In this document: piece after piece, positions 1 to 32,266 of the stretch
How positions within the stretch are numbered: the stretch's first letter is position 1
How the letters are laid out: every line of letters begins with the position of its first letter
NCBI GenBank assembly: GCA_038869735.1
Contig: JAWCQO010000009.1
Location: 1 to 32,313, forward strand
DNA length: 32,313 nt
Source of the DNA: Candidatus Anstonellales archaeon
GTDB taxonomy: Archaea; Micrarchaeota; Micrarchaeia; Anstonellales; CG1-02-47-40
Direction: 5' to 3'
Made by a program: the position numbers and the translations under genes
The notes under the pieces: model-generated
What the model was told of the DNA's origin: nothing
The model's input: the letters and a program-made list of their open reading frames with translations, nothing else
Database searches by the model: none

Positions 1-271
1 CTCTTGGTCCCCAGTCCTGGCCGTATCCTGTCCAGTTACCTCCCTGAGTTGAGGCTGACAGTGGATAGCCGCTTCCATAATCTCCCCAGCCGTCATTGTC
101 TGTATCGTATATGGGCAGGCCAAGTATGTTCTGGTAGTAGTTTCCCTGTGCAGTTCCACTTGCTGTTGTGTTGAATAGGTTGGTTTCGTTTTTGTTGTCT
201 ATGTAGGTTGTGCAGTTGTAAAGCTCGTTATGATAAAAGAGATTATCCGAAGATGTGGAGGAGATGTTTAT
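1..271. repeat. Module-end repeat, copy 2 (within the beta-helix gene)
   Basis: This segment is repeated at 1774-2044, an offset of 1773 bp (591 codons, in frame). Positions 1-127 match 1774-1900 without a mismatch, and 212-271 match 1985-2044 without a mismatch. The stretch between has diverged. It encodes the DTDNDGWGD...WGPRG module end and the preceding last helix coil. The repeat may extend left of the window. Confidence 0.95.
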
Positions 272-3070
272 GCATGTGGTTGGCGAGCTTATGGTGTTGT
301 TTTCAAAAACAAAGCTTGATGTATTAGATAGATTAACGGCTAATTGTAAGCCTGATGATATATTAACATATCTAATGCTTCCGTTTGTCGAATTTTCAAG
401 GTATAACCCCACGTTGTTGCTTGAGTTAATGGTGCTGTTTTGTATTGCTCCACTTGTTAAGTTTGCTATCCATAAAGCTATGCCTTTATTTGAGGTTATT
501 AGTGAATTGGTAATATTAACGCTTGGGGAATAGAAAACACCTAACCCGTAGGTTGCATTTTCTCCAATTCCACGAATTGTAGAGCCTGTTATATTAAGGC
601 TAGTTTCAGAAGCTTTTAAGCCAAATGCTGGATATATGCCAGCCGACTCGCCAGTTACATTTGCCAGCGTGATATTCTGTGAGTTATAAATATATATACC
701 TGTTGAACTGGTAGAGTTTGCATATACATTTTGAAGTGTTACGTTTTGCGAATAAGAAAGGTAAACCCCTTCTGAAGAGTTGGCTATAAATTCAGAGTTT
801 AGAATGGTGATATTTCCAGCTTTCTCAATATATAAGCTCATGTTTCTCTTTGAATAAACACGAACATTTTCCACATTGTTGTTATAGCTATCTCTAACAA
901 TGAAAGCATAACCGCCATTGCTCTCAACAGTAAGATTTTTTAGAGTTGTTTGGTTTGCAAGATTAACATCGAAAGCGTTTGCGCTCCCCGAGCCTGCGGG
1001 AATATTAGTCTGATTTATTACAGTATTCTCTATAATTGTTCCGTCTACTTTATAGCCTCCAGAATAGCCAACGGTAAAAGCTCCATTATAACCTGTGACT
1101 TTTATATGAGAATTATTTACAACTGCATTAGGGTATCTTATGGCTACGCCAACTCCCGAAGATGAAAATGAAGTTAAGTTATTAAACCTATTATTAGGTC
1201 CATCTATAAATAAAGCAAGATAATACCATGTTTGAGTCTCTGTATTCTCTATTGTGCAGTTGCTTGCTGAAAGCCAAAGCCCTGCCCATCCTCTCCCTTG
1301 GAAAAACGAATTATTTATAGTGTGATTAAAGCCACGAATATAGCCAGCATGCAGGAACGGCTCGCCTCCGTTAGAAATAAGAACTGAAGAATTGACTTTA
1401 TTTATTTTTGTATTGTTAACAGTCCAGTCAATATAAAGGTTATGCCCGCCTGCTCGGTTCTTGGCATGCATAAGCTTAACATTATCTATAGAAACATTCC
1501 GGGTATAACCATAAATTCCAAGATGCGTCGTAAAGTTATAGATTGTGATATTAGCAACTACAACATTTGAAGCATTTATACTGATGCCGTGCGAGCCTGT
1601 AATGTTGTCTCCGACTATGGTATAGCCCGCCCCGTTTAAAGTCACGTTTTCTGCACTTATGTAAAAGCATGTGCCGCTGGTCCAGTTGGTGATGTTTCTT
1701 ATTAGTGTGTAAGTTGTGCCTGGGGAAGTTAGGTTTGAGCATGAACCAAGAAGTGATGGGTCTACTGTTGCTCCTCTTGGTCCCCAGTCCTGGCCGTATC
1801 CTGTCCAGTTACCTCCCTGAGTTGAGGCTGACAGTGGATAGCCGCTTCCATAATCTCCCCAGCCGTCATTGTCTGTATCGTATATGGGCAGGCCAAGTAT
1901 ATTTTGGTAATAATTCCCTTGTGCAATTCCGTTTGAGGTTGTGTTAAATAGGTTTGTGTCGTTTTGGTTGTCAATGTAGGTTAGGCAGTTGTAAAGCTCG
2001 TTATGATAAAAGAGATTATCCGAAGATGTGGAGGAGATGTTTATACATGCTTTGTTGGAGGGGGGATTTCCACCTATAGTGTTATTTGCAATGATAGAGT
2101 TATCAGCATTTGTTAATTTTAGACCTGATTTGGTTTGTGAGTGTGTGGAAATGTTGCTTCCCGTTATGTTGTTCCAGCTTGAGTCAGTTAGTTCAAGTCC
2201 AAAGTATGAGGTTGATGTAGATGTGGAGTTTATTATTTGGTTGTAGTTTGAGGAGGAGATATAAATACCAGAGACTGTGGTTGATGAGGTTGTTCCATTT
2301 GAGGTTATGATTGAGTTGCCAGAAGACGAGAACCTTATGCAAATGCCACAATAGCTTGATGATGTTCCGTTTGAGTTTATGATTGAGTTGTTTTGTCCGC
2401 TATCAATTCCAATACCAAAATAAGCTCTGCCTGCGGAATATTTTATGGTTGTAAAGTTTGAAGACCAAACATATATCCCACGGCCTGTATCTAAAGACGA
2501 GGTGTAACCCACTGAACCTGTGACGTTGTTGTAGGTGCTTGAATCGACATAAATAGCATAGGAAGATTGGGAGTAGGCTGTTGAGTTTATTATTTGGTTG
2601 TAGTTTGAGGAGGAGATATAAATACCATTGCTTGAGCTTGATGTTCCGTTTGAATTGATGATTGTAATAGAGTTTACATTTGAAAGGAAAATTCCCTTTC
2701 CACCTGCAACCGAAGTCATTGCAGTTATATTATCTATTGTTCCAAGTTGTGTATTAGCAAGATAAACTCCTTTTTCAAATCCATCTATTATCCCATTGGT
2801 TATAGTGGAGTTCTTTGCAGTTGTGTATATCCCAATAGAGTTGGCTTGTTTTGTTCCATTTATTAGGAAGCCATTCAGGTTGAAGGTGACATTTTCTGCT
2901 GTTATGTTAAAGCAGGAAAGAGCATTTGTTGAGATTGAGGAGATGAGGGTATAAGTTGTTCCTTGAGTATTGAGGTTTGCGCAAGCTGAAATATCTATTG
3001 AAAAGATTGTGCTGACCAGCAGAGAGAATAGAAAAAGAGCATAAGTAACTATTCTCCTGCTAATCTCCAT
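1..3070 (-). CDS. Giant modular parallel beta-helix (NosD-like) surface protein, C-terminus beyond the window
   Basis: An uninterrupted minus-strand frame runs from an ATG at 3070 off the left edge, giving at least 1023 residues. It begins with a signal peptide: basic MEISRR, then a hydrophobic stretch to about residue 25. The rest is low-complexity beta-helix sequence rich in Asn, Ser, Thr, Gly and Ile. Phrases such as GIYISSSNYNQIINS and NVTLQNVYANS recur, as in NosD/pectate-lyase-like right-handed helices. It is dense in N-x-S/T sequons, so heavy N-glycosylation is likely. Two modules are visible. Each opens with a C-x-N-L...GTTYTL...CF-I-AENVT-NG segment (about residues 31 and 445) and closes with a Ca-binding-like DTDNDGWGD followed by a WGPRG motif (about residues 432 and 1023). 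The function is probably an extracellular adhesin or S-layer-associated protein, but ligand and role are unknown. It lies downstream of the ABC ATPase and the beta-sandwich anchor protein on the same strand, separated by 216 bp. Confidence 0.9.
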   Translation of the reverse strand, partial: MEISRRIVTYALFLFSLLVSTIFSIDISACANLNTQGTTYTLISSISTNALSCFNITAENVTFNLNGFLINGTKQANSIGIYTTAKNSTITNGIIDGFEKGVYLANTQLGTIDNITAMTSVAGGKGIFLSNVNSITIINSNGTSSSSNGIYISSSNYNQIINSTAYSQSSYAIYVDSSTYNNVTGSVGYTSSLDTGRGIYVWSSNFTTIKYSAGRAYFGIGIDSGQNNSIINSNGTSSSYCGICIRFSSSGNSIITSNGTTSSTTVSGIYISSSNYNQIINSTSTSTSYFGLELTDSSWNNITGSNISTHSQTKSGLKLTNADNSIIANNTIGGNPPSNKACINISSTSSDNLFYHNELYNCLTYIDNQNDTNLFNTTSNGIAQGNYYQNILGLPIYDTDNDGWGDYGSGYPLSASTQGGNWTGYGQDWGPRGATVDPSLLGSCSNLTSPGTTYTLIRNITNWTSGTCFYISAENVTLNGAGYTIVGDNITGSHGISINASNVVVANITIYNFTTHLGIYGYTRNVSIDNVKLMHAKNRAGGHNLYIDWTVNNTKINKVNSSVLISNGGEPFLHAGYIRGFNHTINNSFFQGRGWAGLWLSASNCTIENTETQTWYYLALFIDGPNNRFNNLTSFSSSGVGVAIRYPNAVVNNSHIKVTGYNGAFTVGYSGGYKVDGTIIENTVINQTNIPAGSGSANAFDVNLANQTTLKNLTVESNGGYAFIVRDSYNNNVENVRVYSKRNMSLYIEKAGNITILNSEFIANSSEGVYLSYSQNVTLQNVYANSTSSTGIYIYNSQNITLANVTGESAGIYPAFGLKASETSLNITGSTIRGIGENATYGLGVFYSPSVNITNSLITSNKGIALWIANLTSGAIQNSTINSSNNVGLYLENSTNGSIRYVNISSGLQLAVNLSNTSSFVFENNTISSPTTCINISSTSSDNLFYHNELYNCTTYIDNKNETNLFNTTASGTAQGNYYQNILGLPIYDTDNDGWGDYGSGYPLSASTQGGNWTGYGQDWGPR
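1774..2044. repeat. Module-end repeat, copy 1 (within the beta-helix gene)
   Basis: Partner of the segment at 1-271. Identity holds at synonymous codon positions, so the likeness is at the DNA level and not only in the protein. Confidence 0.95.
2226..2270. repeat. 45-bp identical coil repeat, copy 1
   Basis: These 45 bases recur exactly at 2583-2627, an in-frame offset of 357 bp (119 codons). They encode the beta-helix phrase GIYISSSNYNQIINS, showing short-range coil duplication inside the first module. Confidence 0.9.
2583..2627. repeat. 45-bp identical coil repeat, copy 2
   Basis: Exact partner of 2226-2270 in the same reading frame of the beta-helix gene. Confidence 0.9.
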
Positions 3071-10881: not shown

Positions 10882-11436
10882 TTATTGGAAGGATTCATTT
10901 ATTCTAACTATCCCTCCAACGCTGGCGGTTGGAGAAACAGCAGTTGCAATTAATGTGGCTTGTGCCTGCCTCTCCTCATACCCTTCGGGTTCGTCTGCGT
11001 ATTTATATTTTAAGATTAATTTTCCTCTAAATTCATCACCCTCCTTTAGAGCCACTACTTCTGAGCCGCTTTTCATACATTTGACGCCTACATCTTTTCT
11101 AAACGTATAAGAAGAGCCTGGCATGATGTTGCGTCGTGTAAATGAGGGGAGGAATGCACCAGAGTATTCTTCAGTTGTACAGGCAACGTTTGTTATGGTA
11201 ACTTCTTTTTGGCCGGTGTTTTTTATTGTGAAAATGAGAGAACCGTCAGTGAGTACCTGTGGAAAAGGGTCTGAGCAGGAGAAAAACTTCTGGGAAAAGA
11301 TGCATTGATCTCCAAGCTTAAAGAGTGATGTGAGTGAAAAGAGGATAGCGACTACTATCACTACGACAAGGAGAGCCCAGCCGTAAGTCATAAGATATTC
11401 CATAGCTGCCTGTCCACGCTTGTTTTTTGGTAGCAT
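10882..11436 (-). CDS. Archaeal type IV pilin-like protein with class III signal peptide
   Basis: 184 residues. The N-terminus MLPKNKRGQAAMEYLMTYGW has a short basic leader. A prepilin peptidase (EppA/PibD-type) would cut before GQAAMEYL, with Glu at mature position 5 as in class III signal peptides. A hydrophobic helix (ALLVVVIVVAILFSL) follows that packs in the filament core. The remaining 140 residues are a soluble beta-rich domain with four cysteines (CIFSQKFFSC, NVACTTEE, VKCMKSG), so disulfides are possible. It is 12 bp after the TadC-like gene and shares its operon. It could be the major pilin or a minor one; only one pilin is seen here. Confidence 0.88.
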   Translation of the reverse strand: MLPKNKRGQAAMEYLMTYGWALLVVVIVVAILFSLTSLFKLGDQCIFSQKFFSCSDPFPQVLTDGSLIFTIKNTGQKEVTITNVACTTEEYSGAFLPSFTRRNIMPGSSYTFRKDVGVKCMKSGSEVVALKEGDEFRGKLILKYKYADEPEGYEERQAQATLIATAVSPTASVGGIVRINESFQ

Positions 11437-11448
11437 TCCAATCCAACC

Positions 11449-12504
11449 TCAGACAACTGCAAACCCAAGGCCTTGAAGAAAGGCCTTAGTCGTAAAGAAT
11501 ACTATTAAAGACAAAGCGCTTAAAAAAGGTATATATCTAACTCCGTGCCACTTAGAGCCCTTCTGTATTATGCCTATGATTATGGAGGACGTGATTGAAG
11601 TAAATAGGATGACGCCTATTGAGAATACAACAAACTCATCGGGAGAGAATGGTGGTTTTGAGAGTGAGAAAAACGCAAAACCGCGCTCTACTTGAGCTGA
11701 GGGCAACTTGCTAAATGCAGCGTAAAGGGTAGAAAGCAAAGAATGAGATACGGCCATCAGAAAAGGGGAGCCTATTACACTTGCGAACAAAACAAATATT
11801 ACATACATCAGGAGGGAGGAGGATATTTCTTTTGAGGTTATTTGTATATTCCTTCCGTCTTGGGCTATCTCATCTAAAACGTCAGCTGTTTTTCCTCCTG
11901 TCAGCATGCTTTGTTTTATTAAGGATACTGTACGCATAAGAAGTGGGGAATCGAAGCTTGATGCCAGCTTGTCAAGTGAAGTAGTAAATGGTTCTCCAGC
12001 AAAGGCTCTTTTTGCGGCAGCCTCCACCTCACGAGAAAGAAGACCAAACTCCGGCTTTGCTGCCTGCCAAAGCGCCTGGTCAACGGGCATGCCTGCACGT
12101 ATATTTGCACTTGCAATCATTAGAAAATCAGGAAGGGTTGATTCGACCAGTTTTCTTCTCGACTCTGAGCTAAAGGAGAGATACGTGTAAGAAAGAAGAA
12201 AGAGGGTTGAGGCTGAAAGCACAATGGATATCAAATAGAGCAAGATCGAAGCTGAGAAGATTACTTTAAATGGAAAAGGGAGCTTGCCGGAAATAGCAGA
12301 TGCAAGCAAGTAGAATTTCTGGGATGTATAAAGAAATCCAAATATTGCAATCGAAAGCAATATCGTAAATGAAAGGAGAAGACCAACAAGCACTTCTGCT
12401 CTTATACTAACACCTGCCATGCGAAGGGCGGCTTCAATCTTACGGATATGCTGCCGCGAAAGAGAGCGTCCTAGCTTATCAAAAAAATCTATAATGCTCA
12501 TCAT
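11449..12504 (-). CDS. tadC: Type IV pilus membrane platform protein, TadC-like (T2SF family)
   Basis: 351 residues with about five hydrophobic helices: near 39-60, a long pair near 80-125, and three in the C-terminal half (MYVIFVLFASVIGSPF and later). The cytosolic stretch between them, LVESTLPDFLMIASANIRAGMPVDQALWQAA, is the T2SF/GspF hallmark ('lp..l..la..l.aG.....al'). It overlaps the TadB-like gene by 4 bp (ATGA), so the two are translationally coupled and probably form a heteromeric platform, equivalent to a single FlaJ split in two. The platform couples the TadA motor to pilin insertion. Confidence 0.85.
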   Translation of the reverse strand: MMSIIDFFDKLGRSLSRQHIRKIEAALRMAGVSIRAEVLVGLLLSFTILLSIAIFGFLYTSQKFYLLASAISGKLPFPFKVIFSASILLYLISIVLSASTLFLLSYTYLSFSSESRRKLVESTLPDFLMIASANIRAGMPVDQALWQAAKPEFGLLSREVEAAAKRAFAGEPFTTSLDKLASSFDSPLLMRTVSLIKQSMLTGGKTADVLDEIAQDGRNIQITSKEISSSLLMYVIFVLFASVIGSPFLMAVSHSLLSTLYAAFSKLPSAQVERGFAFFSLSKPPFSPDEFVVFSIGVILFTSITSSIIIGIIQKGSKWHGVRYIPFLSALSLIVFFTTKAFLQGLGFAVV

Positions 12505-13400
12505 CCAACACCAACCCTTGGTCTTGATGCTTCGATTGCAGATACAAAGAGAAATTGAAAAAGGGATATGATTACAAAAATAACAAGAAGGAGTAGACTT
12601 CCGTTTGCGTTTGCCCAGAAACCAATAAAGGAGAGCAAAATGGAACCAAGTGCAACTCCAAGAGAGGGGAAAACGATACCAAAAACCATGAAAAACATAA
12701 CTAAGGGGTAGAGTTTTTGACCATAGGCTTTTAGTGAAACTAATTGTTCGCGCGAGATTTGTTCAAGTACCGAGTCAAGAGAGTTTGCAACATCAGAACC
12801 TGAAGAAAGAGCGTTTGAAAGCTGGAGAACAACACGCCTAAACATTTGAGATGGGTTTGTTGCTGCAACTTCGTGCATGGCGGCATTCACCGGCATACCA
12901 AGAGCAGTTTTTTCTATTATTCTGTTAAATTCCTTGCTTGCTTCGCCGTAGCCTGATGAGGCGGCAGATATGGCATCGTATAGAGGAACGCCCGCCCTCA
13001 GTGAAATTAGGATATGCCTTCCGGCAAAGACAAGCTCTGATTCAATAAGACGCGCGCGTACATTGGCCTTCACTCGTGGGAAGTTCATAAAATAGAAAAA
13101 TGAGAAAAGAAGGAAAAGTGGGAATAGGAACAGAAAGAAAACAGGGTTAATACGTGGCAGAAAAAGATAGGCTATTAGAAGGAGCGAAAGCGAAAGAAAG
13201 AGTGAAGAGCGCAATGCATGGTAAGCAAATGAAAGTGTGGTGTAGTTGGTTAGATTAGCCATTACAAGCTCTGACTGGAGATTCGGAAAATACTTAAGGG
13301 TGTATGAAAGAAGATTGGACAAGGAAGCAGGGATAGAAATAGATTTAGTACTATTTTCATCAGTTGGGTCTTCTTCTTTTAGCTTTCTTTTTCGGTCCAT
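12501..13400 (-). CDS. tadB: Type IV pilus membrane platform protein, TadB-like (T2SF family)
   Basis: 299 residues. A charged cytosolic N-terminus of about 65 residues comes first, then two membrane helices (about 66-110). The T2SF domain follows, with LVFAGRHILISLRAGVPLYDA and ALGMPVNAAMHEVAATNPS, then two or three helices at the C-terminus (YPLVMFFMVFGIVFPSLG and SLLLLVIFVIISLFQFL). The two T2SF proteins are paralogous in layout. It starts 3 bp after the TadA stop and overlaps TadC by 4 bp. Confidence 0.85.
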   Translation of the reverse strand: MDRKRKLKEEDPTDENSTKSISIPASLSNLLSYTLKYFPNLQSELVMANLTNYTTLSFAYHALRSSLFLSLSLLLIAYLFLPRINPVFFLFLFPLFLLFSFFYFMNFPRVKANVRARLIESELVFAGRHILISLRAGVPLYDAISAASSGYGEASKEFNRIIEKTALGMPVNAAMHEVAATNPSQMFRRVVLQLSNALSSGSDVANSLDSVLEQISREQLVSLKAYGQKLYPLVMFFMVFGIVFPSLGVALGSILLSFIGFWANANGSLLLLVIFVIISLFQFLFVSAIEASRPRVGVG

Positions 13401-13403
13401 AGT

Positions 13404-14933
13404 TTAGATGCCCTCCCACTTAGCATTATGCTCAGCTAACGAAAGGATTTCGTCAGGTGATTGATAGTAGTTTGAGATTATGCGAGCAACTGTCTCAAGC
13501 CCGGTGTATTTGTTGCGTACCATCCATGAAAGTATTTTTGATTTTTCTTCTACGTCTTGGTCTATCTCCTTTTGAGTCAGGCCGGAGTAAAGGGAGAGTT
13601 TTTCTGAAAGCTTGTTCATCTTACCAATGGGAAGCATTCGCTGGCTTTTTATGTCAAGTCGATAGAGTACATTAGCGCCGTCACTTGAAACCTCTGCAAA
13701 CTCGAATGTTTTTCGCAGATTTAAGCGGCGGTTTCTATACTGTACAACTATTCCTGAAAGCGAATCAAGCATAACCCGTGGTACGTTTATAGGAGGATTT
13801 GTAAGGCGAGTTACTGTTTCTTGTGAGTTGTCCGCATGAATCGTAGCATAAACCGAATGTCCGGTGTGCATGGCTTCAAACATTACTTGGGCTTCTCTTT
13901 CTGTGCGAACTTCTCCTAGCAGTATTCTATCAGGTCTTTGTCGAAGAGAGTTAATAAGAAGGTCAAGCATAGTGATTTCGCCCTTTCCCTCAATATTTGA
14001 TTCTTTAGTTACCATTGGAATCCAATGCATAAATGATGGCAGAGTAAGCTCGCGCGTGTCTTCAATAGAGATTATGCGCTGATTAGCAGGAATAAGAGTT
14101 GCAATAGCATTTAAAAATGAAGTTTTTCCGCTTCCTGTTCCTCCAGTGACTAACAAAGACATCTCGTTTTGGACACAAAGCCATATTAGAGAGGCTATGT
14201 GCGTTGGGATACATTCTAGTTCAACAAAACGGCTAATGGTCCACGGGTTTTGGGAGAACTTTCTGATGGTAATAGTATTTCCAAAAGAGGAAACCGGATA
14301 GAGCGTCGCATTAACTCTTTCTCCGGTTGGAAGATGGGCGTCCATAAGCGGGCATAGTGTGTTTATCTGTTTTCCTATTTTCCTCCCTATCAATGCGGCA
14401 TAATCGTATATATTTTCCTCAGATCTTATATACACATTCGACTTGCACCATCCCCATTTTTTGTGATATACCCAGACTGGCTCATTTGAATTATTTATTG
14501 CAATTTCTTCAAGCTTATCATCGTGCATTAGAGCTTCCAGCTCTCCAAGACCAAGTGTATTTTGGATTAGATATGAAGCAAGGACTTGTTTTGTAGAGTC
14601 AGAAAGGGATGGGAAGTTGCGTGTGAGTAAGGCAAGTGCCTTTGAATTGAACTTTTCTTTTATTTCGTCTGCTTTTTTAGAGTCAAGCATCTCTGAGACC
14701 GAAATTTTTACGCTTGAGACGAGTTCAGCCTTTAGTGTGTTTAGAACTATTTTTGTACCTTCTCCTAGTCCGGGTATGTGGAGGTTGTAGCGCGGAGTAA
14801 AGTCTGATGCAGCGCGAGTTATTTGTACATTGACAGGAATAGACTCTGAATTGAAATAGTAATTGTCAAGAATTGTGGCTTTATCTTGTTTGGCTTTATC
14901 TTGTTCGTCTTCTTTTTTGATTTTGTCTGGCAT
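13404..14933 (-). CDS. tadA: Type II/IV secretion ATPase, TadA/CpaF-like pilus motor
   Basis: 509 residues. The N-terminal domain (about 1-230) includes an AINNSNEPVWVYHKKWGW segment and the PTGERVNATL stretch of the family. Walker A GGTGSGKT is at 264-271. The Asp box SIEDTRELTLP is near 290, Walker B RILLGEVR at 336-343, and the His box HTGHSVYATIHAD near 356-368. All motor motifs are intact, so it is an active hexameric ATPase that powers pilus assembly. It is the first gene of the operon TadA-TadB-TadC-pilin-lysozyme-like. A GGGA lies 4-8 nt before the ATG. The C-terminal segment from about 440 is outside the catalytic core. Confidence 0.93.
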   Translation of the reverse strand: MPDKIKKEDEQDKAKQDKATILDNYYFNSESIPVNVQITRAASDFTPRYNLHIPGLGEGTKIVLNTLKAELVSSVKISVSEMLDSKKADEIKEKFNSKALALLTRNFPSLSDSTKQVLASYLIQNTLGLGELEALMHDDKLEEIAINNSNEPVWVYHKKWGWCKSNVYIRSEENIYDYAALIGRKIGKQINTLCPLMDAHLPTGERVNATLYPVSSFGNTITIRKFSQNPWTISRFVELECIPTHIASLIWLCVQNEMSLLVTGGTGSGKTSFLNAIATLIPANQRIISIEDTRELTLPSFMHWIPMVTKESNIEGKGEITMLDLLINSLRQRPDRILLGEVRTEREAQVMFEAMHTGHSVYATIHADNSQETVTRLTNPPINVPRVMLDSLSGIVVQYRNRRLNLRKTFEFAEVSSDGANVLYRLDIKSQRMLPIGKMNKLSEKLSLYSGLTQKEIDQDVEEKSKILSWMVRNKYTGLETVARIISNYYQSPDEILSLAEHNAKWEGI

Positions 14934-23632: not shown

Positions 23633-24709
23633 TTAGGTGAGAAGGGAGTTTATCTTTTTGAAAGCTTGAGCTAAAATTCGTTCATTGTAGCAAAGCGAGA
23701 TTCTTATGTGACTTTTATAGTTGCCAAATGACATGCCTGGAACAACAGCAACGCCGTTTTGGAGGAGCTTATCAGCAAACAGGGAAGCGTCCATTCCATT
23801 TGGAAGTGCAGGAAATATATAAAAGCCAGCGTTTGGTTTTTGGAAGCGGAGTGTGTTTGATAGGAATTTAGAGGCGAAGGTTAAGCGCCTCATACAAACA
23901 TTTCTTACTTTTCTGACAAATCTTTTTTTATGCTTCAACGCTGATAATACTCCTTTTTGGAGAAAGAGAGGTACGTTGGTTATGGTGATTCTGTTTAATT
24001 GAGACAGCTTTGATGCAGTCTCTTTAGGCATAACTGCATAACCGATTCTCCAACCGGTCATGCCGAATGTCTTTGAAAATGAATTTACTATGATAAGATT
24101 AGGCGCCAGTGGGCGCTCTTTTCTTCCGTCAAAGCACAAGTCTCTATATGCATCGTCTGCAAAAAGAAGGATGCCTTTTCTTTGAGCAAGAAACAATAGC
24201 TCACTCTCTTTGTCCTCCTCAAGTGCGATGCTTGTTGGATTTGATGGGCTGTTTAGGATTATTAATCTAGTTCGACTGTCTATTGCGTCTTCAAATTTTG
24301 AGATGTCGGGTTTCCAACCATTATCTGCTGTTTCTATCAATTTTATTTTTGCTCCTATGTGTTTGCATATTAATGAGTATGCAGTCCAATAAGGGGAGGA
24401 TATAATAGCGTTATCTCCTCTTTTGAGGTGCATTCTTAGAAGTGAATATATAGCAAATTTTGAGCCTGGTGTTATGGTGATATTTTCTGTTTTGCATTCA
24501 TGGGCTTGAGAGAGCAGTTCGCGTAGCTCGATTTCCCCTGACGAACTTCCGTACTTCCCTTCCCCAGAGTACATACTAAAAGCGGCGGCTTCGATTGCTG
24601 CTCTGGGAGGTTTCCAATCCGGCTCTCCAACATTTAGCTTTATTATCTTTGAACCCGATTTTTCAAGTGAGTATATTTGCTCGAAAATGTCGTATAGCAG
24701 ATGTCTCAC
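23633..24709 (-). CDS. Class I/II PLP aminotransferase, last gene of the aromatic operon
   Basis: 358 residues from a GTG that overlaps the PheA stop (GTGA). Fold-type I aminotransferase features are KLNVGEPDWKPP, ITPGSKFAIYSLLRM, NSPSNPTS (substrate-binding Asn), FADDAYRDL, and the PLP lysine in NSFSKTFGMTGWRIGYAV. The C-terminal Arg for the substrate carboxylate is in SHIRISLC. Because it follows prephenate dehydratase, it probably converts phenylpyruvate (and perhaps 4-hydroxyphenylpyruvate or prephenate) to the amino acid. Aspartate aminotransferase activity is also possible. The chain is about 30 residues shorter at the N-terminus than typical members, so the mobile N-terminal arm is short. 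Confidence 0.88.
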   Translation of the reverse strand: MRHLLYDIFEQIYSLEKSGSKIIKLNVGEPDWKPPRAAIEAAAFSMYSGEGKYGSSSGEIELRELLSQAHECKTENITITPGSKFAIYSLLRMHLKRGDNAIISSPYWTAYSLICKHIGAKIKLIETADNGWKPDISKFEDAIDSRTRLIILNSPSNPTSIALEEDKESELLFLAQRKGILLFADDAYRDLCFDGRKERPLAPNLIIVNSFSKTFGMTGWRIGYAVMPKETASKLSQLNRITITNVPLFLQKGVLSALKHKKRFVRKVRNVCMRRLTFASKFLSNTLRFQKPNAGFYIFPALPNGMDASLFADKLLQNGVAVVPGMSFGNYKSHIRISLCYNERILAQAFKKINSLLT

Positions 24710-25764
24710 CAGTCGACAGCTTTTTTATAGCATCCAAGTAAGCGAAAGTATTCACATTCTTTTGTTGCCTTTTCTATTGCACTAACAACAGTTGGATCTG
24801 AGTCTGAGCCAAGGAAGTCTAAGAGAAAGGCAAACTGTTTTGGTTTGGAAGGAATGGGCCTGGATTCTATTCTTGTTAGGTTTATTCCTGCCTCCGCAAA
24901 TATTTTAAGGACCCCAAATAATGCTCCAGCTTTATGTGGTGTTGAAAAAACAGCAGAACATTTATTTCCGCCTTTCTCCTTTTGCTTTGAGATAACAAGA
25001 AACCTAGTTATGTTGGGACCCGAATCTTCTATGTTTTCTTTTAAAATTTCAAGTCCGTAAATATCAGCACATAGTTTGCTTGCGATTGCTGCTGCGGCTT
25101 TAGGTCTTGATTGTGAGAGCATCATTGCCGAGCCAGCGGTATCGTAATAGGGGATAGCTTCCAGTTTATTTCTTGAAATAAATCCTTTACATTGTGAAAG
25201 CGCCTGAGGGTGGGAATAGACTACTTTTATGTCTCTGTAATCGGTTTCTGGAATAGAGAGAAGACAGTGATGGATTGGTACAGTTACTTCACCAACCACG
25301 TTTAGGTCTGTTTCGATTAGGAGGTCGTTTACATCTGCTATTGAGCCGCCAATAGAATTTTCAACTGGCACCACGCCCATATCGAAGGTCCCAGACTTCA
25401 CTCCATTAAAAACATCTGAAAATTCATTACATGGTATCGTGGATGCGTTTTGTGTGTATTTGAAGGCTGCAATCTCACTGTATGCACCATGCTCACCCTG
25501 AAATCCGACAAGAGTTGTAACCTCTGATTGTATTCTCTTGGATTCTGAGATTATATCTGAAAAAAGCTTATCTACAAATTCCTTCTTTAGGAGAAATGTA
25601 GGGCTCTTTCTAACGATCTCAAGCACCTCTTGCTCTCGCCTTGGGTCTTCAATTTCTTTTTTGAATCTTTTGGCACGCAAAGCAAACTCATTTCTTTTGT
25701 TCAGAAGCCTTAGAATCTCCAAGTCTATCTGGTCTATGTTTTTTCTTATCTCATCCAAATTCAT
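24706..25764 (-). CDS. pheA: Chorismate mutase-prephenate dehydratase (P-protein)
   Basis: 352 residues with three domains. Chorismate mutase of AroQ type occupies about 1-85 (LDEIRKNIDQIDLEILRLLNKR, later KLFSDIISESKRIQ). Prephenate dehydratase is at about 88-265, with GFQGEHGAYSE, VPVENSIGGSI, SHPQALSQC, YDTAGSA and the catalytic/feedback NITRFLVIS segment. A C-terminal ACT domain has HKAGALFGVLKIFAEAGINL and ESRPIPSKP, the GALF and ESRP motifs that bind phenylalanine, so feedback control by Phe is expected. The bifunctional fusion is typical of bacteria and rarer in archaea, where the parts are often separate. It starts 10 bp after aroC. No prephenate dehydrogenase is present in the window. 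Confidence 0.95.
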   Translation of the reverse strand: MNLDEIRKNIDQIDLEILRLLNKRNEFALRAKRFKKEIEDPRREQEVLEIVRKSPTFLLKKEFVDKLFSDIISESKRIQSEVTTLVGFQGEHGAYSEIAAFKYTQNASTIPCNEFSDVFNGVKSGTFDMGVVPVENSIGGSIADVNDLLIETDLNVVGEVTVPIHHCLLSIPETDYRDIKVVYSHPQALSQCKGFISRNKLEAIPYYDTAGSAMMLSQSRPKAAAAIASKLCADIYGLEILKENIEDSGPNITRFLVISKQKEKGGNKCSAVFSTPHKAGALFGVLKIFAEAGINLTRIESRPIPSKPKQFAFLLDFLGSDSDPTVVSAIEKATKECEYFRLLGCYKKAVDW

Positions 25765-25774
25765 AACATCACCT

Positions 25775-26875
25775 TCATATTATTGGACGCTTATTGCGTT
25801 TTTCTGAAAGCAGGATATCTGCAATACAGATTGCTGCGACGTTTTCGACAACAGCAACGGCTCTTATTGCAATACATGGATCGTGCCTCCCAATTATTCT
25901 GAGAGTTGTTTCTTTCATTTCCTTCAGATCTATCGTTTTCTGAGGGGAATAGATGCTGGACGTTGGTTTAAATGCCACACGGAATGTTATCGGCATGCCA
26001 GTCGACAAACCTCCGAGTATGCCGCCAGCGTTATTTGTTTTTGTGACTATTTTCTTGCCGGATATAGTATATTGGTCATTGTGCTTGCTTCCCCTCATCT
26101 TTGATGCCTCAAATCCCTTTCCAAATTCTATTCCCTTTACTGCGGGTATTGCAAAGATGGCAGATGAAATCTTGCTTTCAATGCTTCCAAACATTGGCTC
26201 GCCAAGGCCGGGTGGCATTCCAACAATCCTGCACTCCACTACTCCCCCAACCGAATCGTTGTCTAGCATTGCTCTTTTTACTTCTTCCTCCATTCTTTTT
26301 GAAGTTGAGGTATCCGGACACCTTACCTGACTTTTGTAAGTATTAAAAAGGACTTCTTTGTCTGACGGGTCTCGTGCGAGCCTCACTTTTCCAATTGAAC
26401 GCATAAAAGCCATTGTGAGTATACCATCTTTTTTGAGTAATTGTTTTGCAACCGAACCTGCCATAACAAATGAAGCGGTCATCCTTCCAGAAAATATCCC
26501 ACTCCCGCTTTCTAACTTCCCATATTTTATTAGAGCTGGGTAATCTGCATGACCGGGACGTGGCATCTGCTCAAATTGGGAGTAATCAGAAGGGCGGACG
26601 TCCTGATTTTTTATTTGCATTAATATTCTTTGACCTGTTGTTTTTCCTCTGATTATTCCGCTTTTTATTTCTACTACGTCACTCTCCCTTCTTTGAGTTG
26701 TGAAGATGCTTTGAGCTGGTTTTCTTCTATCAAGCTGTAGCTGAACGTCCTTTTTAGTGACGCTTATCCCCTTTGGACAGCCATTAATTTCTACTCCTAC
26801 ACAGCTGCCGTGGCTGCTTCCAAATACGCGAATAGTAAAGGTATCTCCAAATGAGTATGGGGTTTTGAAACTCAT
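25775..26875 (-). CDS. aroC: Chorismate synthase
   Basis: 366 residues, full length. It converts EPSP to chorismate with reduced FMN. Recognisable segments are FGDTFTIRVFGSSHGSCVGV, the signature HADYPALIKYG after RPG, FSGRMTASFVMAGSVAKQLL, GGILGGLSTGMPI and IIGRHDPCIAIRAV. The two catalytic histidines (in SSHG and GRHDP) are present. The first motif is GSSHG where the family has GESHG, a single substitution of a normally conserved Glu. It overlaps aroA by 4 bp and is followed by pheA after 10 bp. Confidence 0.95.
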   Translation of the reverse strand: MSFKTPYSFGDTFTIRVFGSSHGSCVGVEINGCPKGISVTKKDVQLQLDRRKPAQSIFTTQRRESDVVEIKSGIIRGKTTGQRILMQIKNQDVRPSDYSQFEQMPRPGHADYPALIKYGKLESGSGIFSGRMTASFVMAGSVAKQLLKKDGILTMAFMRSIGKVRLARDPSDKEVLFNTYKSQVRCPDTSTSKRMEEEVKRAMLDNDSVGGVVECRIVGMPPGLGEPMFGSIESKISSAIFAIPAVKGIEFGKGFEASKMRGSKHNDQYTISGKKIVTKTNNAGGILGGLSTGMPITFRVAFKPTSSIYSPQKTIDLKEMKETTLRIIGRHDPCIAIRAVAVVENVAAICIADILLSEKRNKRPII

Positions 26876-28128
26876 GTTCTCACCCTTTCCAAATCTTCAA
26901 AAAAGCTAGGATAGGATTTTGAAACGCACTCCGCACCGTAGATTATTGTTTTTTCTTTTGCACAAAGAGCTGCTACTGCACAGGCCATTGCTATTCTATG
27001 GTCTTTTTGTGAGTCTACAACCCCCCCTCTTAGTTTCTGGCCAAAAATTTCCATTTTATCTCCATTGACTCTGAGTTTTCCACCAAGCTTCTTAAACTCA
27101 GTAACAAGTGATTTTGCCCTATTGCTCTCCTTGTGTATCAATCTCCGAGAGCCATATATGGTGCTTTTTCCCTTGCAGTTGCATGCAAGAGCCACAAGTG
27201 GAGGAAAAAGGTCTGGACAATCGGTGGCATCAAACTCAAAAGAGCAAAGTGATGAAGACAAAACAGAAACTGATCCCTCTTTGCACCTTACTTTGGCGCC
27301 TGTAAGCGTGAGGGCATCAACTATTTTTTTGTCTGGCTGTAAAGAAGATTCACTCAAACCACGTACAGTTATATTACCGGCAATTGCACCTGCCACTAGG
27401 AGAAAGGAGGCACTTGACCAATCACCTTCAACATAGAAGGTAGCTGGCTTGTACTCCTGATTTGCAGGAATGTTAAAGATTCCTTTTTCAACATCAGCCT
27501 CTATTTTTACTCCAAATTTTGATAAAACTGAAAGGCTTATGGCTACATAGGGCTTGCTGGCAAGCCTCCTTGCAACTAAGGTGGAGTCGTTTTTGCATAG
27601 TGGAAGCGCAAATAAGAAGCCAGATATAAGCTGTGAGCTTATTAAACCATCAACTTCTATTCTGCCTCCTATCAGAGGCCCTCTAACAATAATGGGAGGC
27701 CTTCCCAGATTGGTTTTACAGTAGGCACCTGCAGCCTGCATGGGAGCTTCTATTTCGCCTAGATAGCGAGAAAGAAGAGAACCCGTTGCGTTTAGTACAA
27801 CTGTTTGGCTGCAAAGGGCGGATATTGGAGTAAAAAGCCTTATGCATAAACCCGACTCTTTACAGTTAAGTTCTATTTTCTTTTTTCCTCTTCCAATGTT
27901 TTCTCCAGCACCTTTTACGATTAGTGAATCTTTTCTACGAGTTATTTTCGCTCCAAGATTTCTCGCTACACCTTCAGCTGCAGAGGCATCTTCGCAGCAG
28001 CTGATGTTCTTGATTTTTGTTTCCCCCAAAGCTAGGAGAGAGGCAGCTATTGCTCGCTGGCTCACGCTTTTTGAAGGTGGAGCAAAAATGCTTCCTCTAA
28101 CATCTCCGGGTAGGATTATTTTCTTCAC
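26872..28128 (-). CDS. aroA: 3-phosphoshikimate 1-carboxyvinyltransferase (EPSP synthase)
   Basis: 418 residues from a GTG that overlaps the aroE-aroK stop (GTGA). It has the two-domain inside-out barrel of EPSPS. The PEP/S3P contacts visible are PPSKSVSQRAIAAS, SSQLISGFLFALP, DWSSASFLLVAGA, the catalytic Asp region DCPDLFPPL, IHKESNRAKSLV, KDHRIAMA and SKSYPSFFEDL. The loop that reads GNAGT in many enzymes reads KESGLCIR, closer to the 'ESGST' form common in Firmicutes, with Cys where Thr usually sits. The reaction is shikimate-3-phosphate plus PEP to EPSP. It is tightly coupled on both sides by 4-bp overlaps. Confidence 0.94.
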   Translation of the reverse strand: MKKIILPGDVRGSIFAPPSKSVSQRAIAASLLALGETKIKNISCCEDASAAEGVARNLGAKITRRKDSLIVKGAGENIGRGKKKIELNCKESGLCIRLFTPISALCSQTVVLNATGSLLSRYLGEIEAPMQAAGAYCKTNLGRPPIIVRGPLIGGRIEVDGLISSQLISGFLFALPLCKNDSTLVARRLASKPYVAISLSVLSKFGVKIEADVEKGIFNIPANQEYKPATFYVEGDWSSASFLLVAGAIAGNITVRGLSESSLQPDKKIVDALTLTGAKVRCKEGSVSVLSSSLCSFEFDATDCPDLFPPLVALACNCKGKSTIYGSRRLIHKESNRAKSLVTEFKKLGGKLRVNGDKMEIFGQKLRGGVVDSQKDHRIAMACAVAALCAKEKTIIYGAECVSKSYPSFFEDLERVRT

Positions 28129-29450
28129 TTATCTGCACCCCTAATCAATTCCTCGCCTATCAGTTCAGCTATTTGGTAAGGGAGCTTGTGATTGGTGTTT
28201 ACAGCAATATGGCATGCAGAAGCATACAGGGGGAGGCGATAGCTCAAAAGTCTTTTTATGGTTTCTTTTCTATTTTTGCCTATGAGGAGGGGGCGGTTCT
28301 TGTTGCCTCTTGTTCTCTTTAAAATCTCTCCTTGCCCTGCATAAAGCCAGATTACAAAGCAATTATCTTTCAAAAGAGCCACATTTTCTTTTCTTAGTAC
28401 TATCCCTCCCCCACATGAGATTACTGTTTTATCATCGCTTAGAGCTTTTTTAAGTGCTGCTGATTCCATGTCCCTAAACCTATGCTCTCCAAAGGTATTG
28501 AATATGTTGGATATGCTCATGCCTACCTCCTTTTCAATAAGAACATCTGTTTCTGTGAATTTGAAGCCAAGCCTTTTTGACAAGGTCTTCCCCACGGTAC
28601 TCTTTCCGCTTCCCATAAAACCAATGAGGGCTATTTTTCTTCGAGTCCTTAATTCAGGATAGCTTGAAAACGCGCATTCTCTCATGAGGTTGATTGGTGC
28701 TTTTCTTCCAGTAAATATCTCAAAGGCTGATGCTCCTTGAAATAGGAGCCACTCAAGAGGGGATATTATGGTGCAACCAACCTTTCTTGCATCAGAGAGT
28801 AGGGCACTTTTGCCGGAGTAGTTTGCGTCAAGAACTGCCATCGAGGGTTTAAGAAGCTTTCTGGGAACGATGCGCTCATGGGTTGAAACGCATGAAATTA
28901 TTATGTGTGACCCAACAACTGCAGCTTTGAGTTCTCCTTTGCTTATGCCTATAGCCCTGCAGCCAAACATTTTACATATTTCTTTTGCTTTCTCAGTTGT
29001 TCTATTGGCGCAGATAACGTTTGATCCAGCTTGAGTTAGCGCCATAATGGCTGCTTTTGCAGAGCCACCGGCTCCGAGTACTACTACGGACTTTCCCTTT
29101 AGGGGTATACCGGCCGACTGAAAGGCTCTGAGAACTCCATCAGTATCTGTGTTAAAGCCGATTGATTGACCGTTTTTGAATACCACTGTGTTGCATGCAC
29201 CGAGTCTCTCTACCTCCACGCTTGCCTTGTTTAATTTTTCTGCAATGTCTTCTTTGAGGGGGGATGTTACATTCATGCCGCGAAGCCCGATTTCCCTTGC
29301 AATATTAAGAACGTCCTGAGCGCTTTTTGCCAAAAGTCTAAAATAGATTGCATTTAGTCCACATTTTTTCATTGCAGATGTTTGCATTTGTGGACTCCGG
29401 CTATGGGATATCGGGCAGCCGACAACTGCAAACAAAAGCGGTTTTTTCAT
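28125..29450 (-). CDS. aroE-aroK: Fused shikimate dehydrogenase-shikimate kinase
   Basis: 441 residues encode two consecutive pathway enzymes in one chain. Residues 1-265 are AroE: VVGCPISHSRSPQMQ, NVTSPLKED with the catalytic Lys at 66, FNTDTDG, the NADP loop LGAGGSAKAA near 125-134, and the C-terminal QGASAFEIFTG. Residues 272-441 are a P-loop shikimate kinase of the bacterial AroK type: LIGFMGSGKSTVGKTL with Walker A at 277-284, ETDVLIEKEVGMSI, FGEHRFRDMESAAL with the shikimate-binding Arg, ISCGGGIVL, and the lid RNKNRPLL-type segment. All catalytic residues appear intact, though the usual DTD is ETD. Most archaea use an unrelated GHMP-family shikimate kinase. There is no stop or frameshift at the junction, and only a short linker (SYPELRTRRK). 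Confidence 0.95.
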   Translation of the reverse strand: MKKPLLFAVVGCPISHSRSPQMQTSAMKKCGLNAIYFRLLAKSAQDVLNIAREIGLRGMNVTSPLKEDIAEKLNKASVEVERLGACNTVVFKNGQSIGFNTDTDGVLRAFQSAGIPLKGKSVVVLGAGGSAKAAIMALTQAGSNVICANRTTEKAKEICKMFGCRAIGISKGELKAAVVGSHIIISCVSTHERIVPRKLLKPSMAVLDANYSGKSALLSDARKVGCTIISPLEWLLFQGASAFEIFTGRKAPINLMRECAFSSYPELRTRRKIALIGFMGSGKSTVGKTLSKRLGFKFTETDVLIEKEVGMSISNIFNTFGEHRFRDMESAALKKALSDDKTVISCGGGIVLRKENVALLKDNCFVIWLYAGQGEILKRTRGNKNRPLLIGKNRKETIKRLLSYRLPLYASACHIAVNTNHKLPYQIAELIGEELIRGADK

Positions 29451-30100
29451 GTTAGTGCCTCCAGAATAGAGTTCATCTTTTTTACATCAATTTGTCCTTC
29501 GGCGATTTCCTTCCCAACGCTCCGGCTTGCATAGGTAAATGGGCTTCCCAATAGAGGAGCGACGATTCTTACGATACGTCCCTTTTGTCCCATTCCAACA
29601 ACCAAAATTCTCTTTTTGTAGGATAGGAGCCCGAGAAGCCTTGCGCAGTCTCGCATTGAATTTGCTTTGCAGGAAATTTTTATTATGTCTGGCTTAAACT
29701 TGGAACACGTTCTAATTATTGCTTGGAGTTTTCGCTCAGAAGGAGTTTTGGAGTAGTTGTGGTAAGAGACTATTGTGCGGCAACCCTTGCTTTTAGCAAA
29801 TCTGATTATATCTGAAATGAAATGCTCTCTGTTTTCCACTTCCACATCCACATATCTTGCCCCGTTCTCAATGGCACTTATGAGAATTTTCTTTCTCTCC
29901 GCGTCGCTTATTTTTCCTTTTCTAAAAGTTGCGATAAGAGTTATAGAGGGAGAGAATATTTTGGATATTTCCCTCTCTGTTGGGAGTTTCTCAAGAAAAT
30001 CTAATCTAACTTCTGCGAATGAAAGACCACGCAGTGCATTCAGCAACTCAAAAACGGTTTTCTCTCCTACACTAACACAGATTTTATTTTTATGAATCAT
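29447..30100 (-). CDS. aroD: Type I 3-dehydroquinate dehydratase
   Basis: 217 residues, a normal length for the archaeal/enteric type I TIM-barrel enzyme. It removes water from 3-dehydroquinate through a Schiff base. The strand FAEVRLDFLEKL, the VDVEVE strand, the catalytic His in VSYHNYSKTP, the Schiff-base Lys in DIIKISCKANS, and the C-terminal substrate clamp GSPFTYASRSVGKEIAEGQI are all present. It starts inside the end of aroB (11-bp overlap) and overlaps aroE-aroK by 4 bp, so the three are translationally coupled. Confidence 0.95.
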   Translation of the reverse strand: MIHKNKICVSVGEKTVFELLNALRGLSFAEVRLDFLEKLPTEREISKIFSPSITLIATFRKGKISDAERKKILISAIENGARYVDVEVENREHFISDIIRFAKSKGCRTIVSYHNYSKTPSERKLQAIIRTCSKFKPDIIKISCKANSMRDCARLLGLLSYKKRILVVGMGQKGRIVRIVAPLLGSPFTYASRSVGKEIAEGQIDVKKMNSILEALT

Positions 30101-31118
30101 CTAGCACTGCCTCCAGATCGCTTTCTTTAATCTCTATTATTCGTGCGCTACCAATGTCCTCAAGAAGTGGAATTCTTATAGTGTTTGCGCGCCTTTTTTT
30201 ATCTTTTTCAATGGCGTCAAGAATCTCCTGCTTGTTTATATCAATCGTTATAGGAAGGTTAAAAGTGGATAGAAGGTTTGCAAGCCTTTCGGCTTGTGAG
30301 CGTTTCAAGAGATTCTTTTTCACGGATAACTTTGACTCAATGGCCATTCCTATAGAAACACAATATCCATGGGGAAGCCCATATACCTTCTCTATTGCAT
30401 GTCCTATGGTATGTCCAAAATTGAGTTTCATTCTCTCTTTGACTTCTGTCTCGTCAGCCTCTACTATCCTGCTTTTTATGAGTATGGAGGCCTGGAGTGC
30501 CCGTTCAATAGAGCTTTTTTTGAGGGATAAACAGTCTTTGCTGTTTTTTTCCAAAAAGTCAAAGAGGGTTTTGTCAGCTATGCTTGCATGCTTGATAATT
30601 TCGGCAAAGCCGCAGGATATTGCTTGTGATGAGAGAGTTTTGAGTGCTTCAAAATCGCACAAAACAAAAGAAGGTTGCCTTATTGTCCCTATGATGTTTT
30701 TGTATCCTTTAAAGTTTAGGCCGTTTTTTCCACCAATGCTTGCATCTGCCTGCGCCAAGAGGGTTGTTGGTACAAGACCGAGGGTTACGCCCCTAAGATA
30801 AGTGGAAGCAACAAAACCTGCAACGTCGCAAACTACTCCTCCACCTACGCCTACAATTGTTGATGACCTTTCAAGCCCATATTCCAAAAGAGCATCATAA
30901 ACCCTCTCTGCAGTTGAAAGCGTCTTTGCTGATTCGCCTTGGCCGATTTCAATTATTGGAATCTTGCCTGGTATGTTTTTGCCGTGAAGTTTTCTTACTA
31001 TGCTGTCAGTAATTATTGCACTTTCTTCTGCAACGATATATTCTAAGAGGTTTGAGATACGCTCCCCTATGAGAATTTGGCATGTTCCGCTTTTTCCCTT
31101 TAGCTTAAGAGCCAACAT
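30090..31118 (-). CDS. aroB: 3-dehydroquinate synthase, classical NAD-dependent AroB type
   Basis: 342 residues. The NAD-binding GVGGGVVCDVAGFVASTYLRG and PTTLLAQADASIGGKNGLN segments are clear. So are the zinc ligands: Glu in CGFAEIIKH, His in NFGHTIGHAIE and His in GLPHGYCVSIGM. The KRRANTIRIPLL end matches the 'KK...g.i.fvLl' motif. It converts DAHP to 3-dehydroquinate. Many archaea lack AroB and make dehydroquinate by the ADH synthase/DHQ synthase II route, so classical AroB plus DAHP synthase indicates a bacterial-style upper pathway. It begins 2 bp after the DAHP synthase gene. Confidence 0.95.
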   Translation of the reverse strand: MLALKLKGKSGTCQILIGERISNLLEYIVAEESAIITDSIVRKLHGKNIPGKIPIIEIGQGESAKTLSTAERVYDALLEYGLERSSTIVGVGGGVVCDVAGFVASTYLRGVTLGLVPTTLLAQADASIGGKNGLNFKGYKNIIGTIRQPSFVLCDFEALKTLSSQAISCGFAEIIKHASIADKTLFDFLEKNSKDCLSLKKSSIERALQASILIKSRIVEADETEVKERMKLNFGHTIGHAIEKVYGLPHGYCVSIGMAIESKLSVKKNLLKRSQAERLANLLSTFNLPITIDINKQEILDAIEKDKKRRANTIRIPLLEDIGSARIIEIKESDLEAVLDDS

Positions 31119-31120
31119 TC

Positions 31121-31948
31121 CTATTTCAACTCCTTCATAAAGCTTTGGAGTTTTCTTATTTTTGCGGCCATTTCTCGAAATTGTGAAGGCGTAAGAGCCT
31201 GCTCTTTGTCTGAAAGAGCTTCTTGGGGGTTTCTATGAACCTCAACAATTATTCCGTCTGCTCCGCATGCTACAGATGCTAGAGACATTGGTGGGATGAG
31301 TTCTGGCCTGCCGGTTCCATGACTTGGGTCTGTTATGACTGGCAAATGAGTGAGCAAACGAACGCAGGGTACTGAGCTTAAATCCAAGGTGTTCCTTGTA
31401 TAGGTTTCAAAGGTGCGGATTCCCCGCTCACATAATATTACATCTGGATTGCCTTCTTTTAAGATATACTCTGCGCAGTTAATCCACTCCTCAATTGTTG
31501 AGTGCATGCCTCTCTTGAGAAGGATAGGCTTCTCTGTCTTTCCAACTTCTTTAAGCAGAGAAAAATTTTGCATGTTTCTTGCTCCTATCTGAAGTACATC
31601 GGCGTACTCAGAAACCCAAGAAACGTCGCGTGGATCCAGTACCTCGGTAACTATTGGGAGGCCGGTTACCTCCTTTGCTTTCTCCAAAAGTTTTAAGCCC
31701 TTTAGTCCAAGTCCCTGGAATGCATAAGGAGATGTTCGCGGTTTGAATGCGCCACCGCGAAGCATATCTGCTCCTGCTTCCTTTACTGCAATCGCTGTTT
31801 CAATTATCTGCTCCTCGCTCTCAACGCTACAAGGACCTGCAATTATGGTAAATCCCTCCCCTACTCTAACATTTTCTACCTTAACAATGGTCTTTTCGCT
31901 TCCGTTTCGCACCGCAAGCTTTATGTTTTTTACAGCTTCCATCTGCAT
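31121..31948 (-). CDS. aroF: 3-deoxy-7-phosphoheptulonate (DAHP) synthase, AroA-I beta/KDO8PS-like type
   Basis: 275 residues from ATG 31948. A TTG at 31954 and an ATG at 31942 are alternatives. The TATA-like box at 31967-31977 favours 31948. Motifs are [84 protein letters not shown] and the C-terminal [11 protein letters not shown]. It condenses PEP and erythrose-4-phosphate, the entry step of the shikimate pathway. The N-terminal extension is only about 30 residues, so no separate ferredoxin-like regulatory domain or fused chorismate mutase is present. Allosteric control must come from elsewhere, for example the ACT domain of PheA. It is the first gene of the operon. Confidence 0.95.
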
Positions 31949-31979: not shown

Positions 31980-32266
31980 TGTTTAACATCACCGGCACAA
32001 AGGACCAAGAAAAAGAAAAATTAAAAACCAAAAAAACTCAGAACCTGTGCCGACTCAAAACCAAAAGCCAAAGCTAAAGAAAGAGAAAAGAAAGAGTGTT
32101 GTGTTGATTTTTTGGTTTTGTAACATTTTTAGACAACCTATTTTTTTGTGTCTAAACCCATTTATAAACTTTCGCTCAAGCCTCCTGCCTGTTTCTTTTC
32201 TACTACTCGGCAAGTGTGTTTACTTAAAAGAAATCAAAAGTTCAAAAATAGAGTAAGGAAGAAGGT
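31980..32266. other. Right-edge intergenic region
   Basis: A-rich sequence without a convincing gene. A plus-strand frame at 32047-32256 is lysine-rich then random and is not called. At 32161-32169 tttataaac is a good TATA box for rightward transcription starting near 32190. A second AT-rich box, acttaaaag, is at 32222-32230. Either could serve the G/C-rich element that starts at about 32269. Confidence 0.5.

Follow-up and report, generated by a model that had tools for sequence, protein, structure and literature searches.

A conserved Micrarchaeota operon for aromatic amino acids, lacking TyrA in one genome, and its probable ribosome-mediated attenuator

The Aromatic Operon and the Region Upstream

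The window analyzed here, 32,313 nucleotides making up the entire contig C9 (JAWCQO010000009.1) of a Candidatus Anstonellales archaeon, carries on its minus strand an operon of eight genes for the biosynthesis of aromatic amino acids (23633-31948), preceded by a short open reading frame (ORF) that is rich in aromatic codons. The host genome belongs to the Micrarchaeota and comprises 884 kb in 15 contigs, with a completeness of 96.85%. We consider it likely that this operon, which is conserved among Micrarchaeota and has lost TyrA here, is controlled by a ribosome-mediated attenuator. The feature reaches upstream of the operon genes, to about position 32174.

An initial annotation made from the sequence alone had placed the genes in the order of the pathway steps, with junctions that overlap or lie within about 10 bp. 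Both statements were borne out by the ORFs and by NCBIfam and Pfam family assignments for all eight, as follows:

31121..31948, minus strand, DAHP synthase, type I-beta, without the N-terminal regulatory domain
30090..31118, minus strand, AroB, classical 3-dehydroquinate synthase
29447..30100, minus strand, AroD, type I 3-dehydroquinate dehydratase
28125..29450, minus strand, AroE-AroK fusion (shikimate dehydrogenase and P-loop shikimate kinase), common to the whole clade
26872..28128, minus strand, AroA, EPSP synthase
25775..26875, minus strand, AroC, chorismate synthase
24706..25764, minus strand, PheA, comprising chorismate mutase, prephenate dehydratase and ACT (CM-PDT)
23633..24709, minus strand, class I aminotransferase, presumed aromatic, with a 4-bp overlap with PheA where relatives carry TyrA

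The junctions measure, in gene order, +2, -11, -4, -4, -4, +10, and -4 bp. The enzyme types had likewise been recognized correctly, namely a classical AroB, a P-loop kinase of the SKI type, a CM-PDT fusion and a Clostridia-like AroA loop of the ESG type. With DAHP synthase and AroB standing beside the enzymes of the chorismate route, the operon encodes a classical shikimate pathway of the AroB type.

The region of interest for control (31991-32174) lies between a TATA-like box and the DAHP synthase gene and contains the following features:

32159..32174, minus strand, promoter element resembling a B recognition element and TATA box, CGAAAGTTTATAAATG, ~42 bp upstream of the leader start
32128..32156, minus strand, TTTAGACA-N13-TGTCTAAA, an inverted repeat with perfect 8-bp arms, located downstream of the TATA-like box and ahead of the leader, a candidate hairpin or protein site
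32055..32126, minus strand, leader ORF MLQNQKINTTLFLFSFFSFGFWF ending in a stop codon, 23 codons with 7 Phe, 1 Trp and no Tyr, an open frame and the first ORF after the promoter
32110..32120, minus strand, helix I, 5' arm CAAAACCAAAA, in the early leader codons
32056..32066, minus strand, helix I, 3' arm TTTTGGTTTTG, in the last aromatic codons; its counterpart in 17 relatives covaries
32044..32054, minus strand, helix II, 5' arm GTCGGCACAGG, beginning directly after the leader stop codon
32010..32036, minus strand, U-tracts U7, U5, U5, and U5 in the helix II loop, a candidate archaeal terminator
31991..32001, minus strand, helix II, 3' arm TTTGTGCCGGT

A Leader Peptide Rich in Aromatic Residues

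Shuffling of the window yielded at least 8 aromatic residues within the last 16 codons in 34 of 5000 trials, and this property together with the motif FFSF[SG] in none of the 5000. Leader ORFs between the promoter and the first structural gene were found in the window and in 36 relatives; in many of the relatives, a TATA-like box precedes the leader by 33-60 bp. The leaders of the relatives span 18-41 codons, typically carry the motif FFSF[SG]Y and usually contain Phe, Tyr and a single Trp codon; examples, each running to a stop codon, are MANGEAQEKNWSYSGFFSFGYSH (L118), MAIAKENAWSGVFRTFGYFFSFSY (L121), MVQMTIARSRWQNFFYYFSFSYRYQENHK (L062) and MAFAREKKAWNGFFYFFSFSYA (L141). Outside the Micrarchaeota, leaders of this kind precede a Thermoplasmata operon (L054, MTMIESRNWIFTIPCLFSAYSY) and a Woesearchaeota-type operon (L250, MSKAASVKRSFWSGSFSSGYFYFSF). 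Leaders passing a strict rule were present at 26 of the 42 operons from Micrarchaeota, Thermoplasmata and unassigned archaea, compared to 0.13 expected from dinucleotide shuffles, at 6 of 11 Woesearchaeota-type operons and at none of 11 bacterial controls.

The reading frame is supported by the same comparison. Aromatic residues account for 30.8% of positions in the frame of the 37 leaders versus 6.7 and 10.8% in the other two frames, a three- to fivefold excess, and outside the SF[SG]Y motif the corresponding values are 21.4% versus 7.4 and 10.4%, an excess of two to three times. All three aromatic amino acids are encoded in 31 of the 37 leaders, with Trp mostly present once. The most conserved stretch, AGCTTTRGCTAT, doubles as an arm of helix I, which would suit a reading in which no peptide is made and the conserved bases of an RNA structure or a protein-binding site spell aromatic codons by chance; we judge this highly improbable given that in-frame aromatic codons are enriched outside that arm, that the Trp codon recurs and that 40 and 76 stops interrupt the other two frames (a contrast in which the leader frame is open by construction).

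Alternative Pairing of the Leader RNA

RNAalifold, applied to 17 relatives with no structure supplied, paired the region of the leader start with the SF[SG]Y codons and, in addition, GUGGU near the leader start with ACCRC near the leader end. Over these 17 sequences, helix I together with GUGGU:ACCRC is paired in 90.7% of cells and contains 23 double-change cells, compared to 7.5 after shuffling; its covariation score is 0.394 vs. 0.268 (0/500), and versions slid along the alignment score 0.05-0.10. One of these pairs is seen as GC, AU, UA, and CG among the relatives. The same ACCRC columns have a second partner downstream, the GUGGU of the helix II 3' arm, with which 86.7% of cells are paired; with one arm shared in this way, the two helix states are mutually exclusive in these relatives.

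Most loci have a helix II at or near the leader stop codon. Helix II scored 25.8 compared to 17.4 ± 3.2 for shuffled sequences, and it exceeded the 95th percentile in 25 of 37 loci. The arms of this stop-codon helix are unrelated in sequence between lineages, as can be seen from the window (GTCGGCACAGG/TTTGTGCCGGT), L123 (CGGACTTGTGAAAT/ATTTTGCAAGTCCG) and L244 (GGCCCTCGATAAG/CTTATCAAGGGCC). The leader RNAs of eight relatives gave fold z-scores of -1.7 to -5.1, and neither these eight nor the window matched any Rfam leader family above the gathering score. Taken together, what comparison among relatives shows, at the level of sequence, is the leader with its reading frame and a pairing that covaries. 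A separate motif resembling UUAGUG(A)UAA recurs in many leaders downstream of helix II and ahead of the DAHP synthase start codon, for example in L035 and L121.

Recovery of Leaders with a Covariance Model

We searched 301 genomes of the phylum with a covariance model built from the leader. The model recovered the operons on which it was trained as well as aro leaders absent from the training set, in genomes G103, G087, G254, G232, and G272, and in the genome to which the window belongs it matched the window leader and nothing else. The model also led to two cases that precede aromatic genes and had not come up through AroB. One, from G218, is the leader MERAKPKTINYFYYSRFFWFSFFYYYFRFFWF ahead of a DAHP synthase gene that stands alone. 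The other, from G211, is the leader MRNAKVCISGNSFFFSFSYY (both end at a stop codon), which is followed by genes for aspartokinase, ASA dehydrogenase, a DeoC/LacD-family aldolase, the archaeal 3-dehydroquinate synthase II (DHQS'), AroD and AroE-AroK, and the operon continues with a fused AroA-AroC, CM-PDT, aminotransferase and TyrA. The aldolase is presumed to be an ADH synthase, and this locus (L318, G211:C33) is a case in which the archaeal entry route has been swapped in, in colinear order, behind the same leader. Weak matches in G136 and G156 look spurious, and the same model gave background matches only on 371 genomes of the Woesearchaeota phylum.

Pathway Completeness and the Loss of TyrA

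The initial annotation called the operon complete, which holds as far as Phe and fails for Tyr and Trp. A search with Pfam PF02153 and with a profile of the relatives' TyrA detected no TyrA in the genome, and the place that TyrA occupies between PheA and the aminotransferase in relatives is empty in the window, where these two genes overlap by 4 bp (24706-24709); TyrA has been lost in this lineage. The trpEGDBA genes form a separate cluster away from the aro operon, and no leader is visible upstream of trpE there. The genome also has no match to DHQS' (PF01959) and only matches below the curated cut-off for a GHMP shikimate kinase (TIGR01920), so that the archaeal alternatives whose absence the initial annotation proposed to check were indeed not found.

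The operon enzymes would make Phe, plus chorismate for the separate trp genes. Because PheA is present, TyrA was not found and trpEGDBA lies elsewhere in the genome, the organism should make Phe and probably Trp. Tyr should not be made unless its source lies in the 3% of the genome that is missing or in an enzyme of unknown kind, phenylalanine hydroxylase not being among the enzymes searched. A link between the loss of TyrA and that of Tyr codons is suggested by the window, whose leader is the only one of 37 without Tyr; we do not claim it, because in the sister operon L121 TyrA is likewise missing beside the aminotransferase, yet the leader keeps two Tyr codons.

Two further observations concern other aromatic genes. 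The trpEGDBA cluster (L177:5249-10729) has no trpC or trpF beside it and is accompanied by a divergent 167-aa protein that by eye resembles a regulator with helix-turn-helix and ACT domains, with no Pfam match. The sister operon L121 (1637-5147) encodes a second, longer CM-PDT-like protein upstream of PheA.

Distribution and Origin of the Operon

AroB homologs were found in 48 of 295 genomes of the phylum, and the whole series with the AroE-AroK fusion recurs in 14 other Micrarchaeota loci among those fetched, normally with TyrA before the aminotransferase. The gene order is consequently common in the clade, and we rejected the idea that it is special to the window's genome. Thermoplasmatota other than the group treated below arrange the genes differently where AroB has stayed near AroE and AroA, and other aro gene orders occur in Woesearchaeota and bacteria. 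In a tree built from up to nine concatenated proteins per operon, whose root depends on just two outgroup rows, the fused operons fall into a single clade with strong support. It comprises Micrarchaeota and a Thermoplasmata group (I-plasma and others), and the window lies inside it. The Thermoplasmata operons are sister to one Micrarchaeota operon (L034) with support of 100/100, as would be expected if acidophilic Thermoplasmata had received the operon as a whole from Micrarchaeota.

The initial annotation proposed that the operon was of bacterial origin and that its order was kept by selection for coupled translation or channeling. Several observations agree with such an origin: the enzyme families are bacterial in type, Bacteroidota and deltaproteobacterial AroB sequences are close in the tree, one genome of the Desulfobacterota phylum has the same fused operon (L259), and a reconstruction of Micrarchaeota evolution infers much horizontal gene transfer of biosynthetic genes (PMC12892359). 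On the other hand, the nearest relatives of most sampled enzymes are Micrarchaeota, and the Thermoplasmata nest inside that clade in the concatenated trees. The corresponding assemblage in the AroB tree also includes Bacteroidota, deltaproteobacterial and other bacterial rows, with weak deep branches, so that an older exchange with bacteria, in either direction, is possible. As for channeling, the colinearity is inherited from a conserved operon, so that one genome is no independent evidence of selection for it, and other gene orders work in other lineages. Taken together, we find the proposal of bacterial acquisition with order kept by such selection doubtful. Misassembly or a contig of mixed origin was rejected as well; nothing points to it, because the window is a whole contig, GC content is even across both operon edges and most sampled enzymes group with other Micrarchaeota.

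Additional observations were made during this survey. Two bacterial bins contain a Micrarchaeota-type aro operon, namely L259 (Desulfobacterota-phylum genome G663) and L038 (a metagenome-assembled genome of Acidobacteria), by transfer or misbinning. The Micrarchaeota-type operons with leader in Thermoplasmata (L042-L059), nested in Micrarchaeota, may represent a symbiont-to-host transfer of a whole regulated operon. EPSP synthase and chorismate synthase are joined in a single AroA-AroC ORF (~800 aa) in L034, L040, L119, L318:3236-5644 and the Thermoplasmata loci L042, L043, L049, L054, and L059, a fusion of which we know no other instance. No viral contigs with AroB were found.

A Model for Attenuation and Its Alternatives

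Of 29 Micrarchaeota, 18 have at least two U4 tracts after the leader stop, where 4.4 would be expected; these tracts lie within the stop-codon helix or next to it. Archaeal termination requires U-tracts and has no strict need of an upstream hairpin, with aCPSF1 binding two U4 tracts (PMC8716108). From these features we infer in which direction control acts and that it uses termination, the simplest model being a three-segment attenuator that senses aromatic aminoacyl-tRNA (charged tRNA-Phe, tRNA-Tyr and tRNA-Trp). When charged tRNA is plentiful, the ribosome would reach the leader stop and cover the 5' arm of helix II, and with helix II blocked the U-tracts would be open to RNA polymerase and aCPSF1/FttA, ending transcription early. 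When it is short, the ribosome would stall on the aromatic codons and break helix I, whereupon helix II could form, hide the U-tracts and allow the operon to be transcribed. In the absence of translation, an extended helix I would prevent helix II and leave the U-tracts exposed.

On balance, we favor the broader view that this is the first archaeal leader-peptide (ribosome-mediated) transcription attenuator, in which one leader reads the supply of Phe, Tyr and Trp and a helix switch exposes or hides U-tract (aCPSF1) signals, and that it is conserved across Micrarchaeota, was carried into the Thermoplasmata group with the operon and was kept when the entry enzymes were swapped.

A number of points weigh against attenuation. 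The leader RNA of the window folds no better than its shuffles (z = -0.26), and E = 0.064 is a weak score from the covariance model when a whole genome is searched. Only the relatives show clearly that the two pairings exclude each other. Helix II alone shows modest covariation on the alignment, with double changes in 2 of 5 pairs, and a simple duplex test that matched arms across genomes separated self from cross pairings only moderately. The leader contains no bacterial-type hairpin directly followed by a U-run, for which reason the terminator is assumed from archaeal biology. The strict leader rule was written only after leaders had been seen, kinship among the sequences inflates the cross-sequence counts, and no leader is visible at the operons L031, L071, and L120.

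Among the alternatives, a regulatory upstream ORF acting on translation or mRNA stability, through re-initiation or access controlled by helix II and with no early termination, would be compatible with a leader and helix II that are conserved whatever the output; moreover, the internal operon junctions overlap, so that translation would be coupled downstream. We regard this as unlikely, given that in most loci DAHP synthase begins only downstream of helix II, so that the helix leaves its start site uncovered, and that U-tracts are enriched beside helix II. It is similarly improbable that the window leader is a mere remnant or arose by chance in T-rich DNA, the reduced genome having lost the control: the fold and model scores given above, the missing Tyr codon and the A/T-rich arms would agree with this, whereas the open ORF with its FFSFGFWF stretch, the helices I and II at their expected places and the four U-tracts do not, nor does the absence of FFSF[SG] with at least 8 aromatics from all shuffles.

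Other Features of the Window

Judged by eye from the translations, positions 10882-14933 hold a cluster resembling a type IV pilus or archaellum (a pilin-like protein, two membrane proteins and a secretion ATPase), and positions 2-3070 encode a large secreted repeat protein, probably a right-handed beta-helix (NosD-like), that is cut by the contig end.

Comparison with Known Systems

The gene order of the window's operon presumably resembles that of Thermococcus kodakarensis, which likewise has an archaeal aro operon for chorismate. That operon (TK0271-TK0262) is run by the activator Tar via TGGACA-N8-TGTCCA and is co-regulated with trp and tyr-phe genes (PMC6737238). Control there acts at the promoter through Tar, whereas here it would act through the putative leader; no Tar site was found upstream of the window's operon, matches in the window are at chance level, and the inverted repeat TTTAGACA/TGTCTAAA is not a Tar site. 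One study reports that several orders of Micrarchaeota synthesize almost every amino acid, using genes acquired by horizontal gene transfer (PMC12892359); the words "aromatic," "shikimate," and "chorismate" are absent from its main text, and gene order, leader and TyrA loss are not described there. The AroE-AroK fusion is known from Methanomicrobiales, with the same two domains in one protein, in a survey whose text makes no mention of Micrarchaeota (PMC11237513), whereas here it is standard in the Micrarchaeota operon and the Thermoplasmata group.

As of 2021, no attenuation or antitermination was known in archaea (PMC8448881), and our searches, at the level of the titles and abstracts they yielded, found none since. 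A conserved attenuator, if true, would mean that archaea regulate genes by linking translation to early termination, and that U-tract termination can take the place of the bacterial terminator hairpin in such control. In host-linked DPANN genomes, whose self-sufficiency is a matter of debate, the leader could also mark operons for aromatic biosynthesis.

The ribosome-mediated attenuators of bacteria are of the trpL, pheL, and hisL type. The archaeal leaders share with them a short ORF, rich in codons for the pathway product, between the promoter and the first gene, as well as, most clearly in relatives of the window, competing RNA helices, one of them near the leader stop. They differ in their archaeal hosts, in a single leader serving all three aromatic amino acids, and in the position of their U-tracts, which lie in the loop or the 3' arm of a putative antiterminator rather than after a terminator hairpin.

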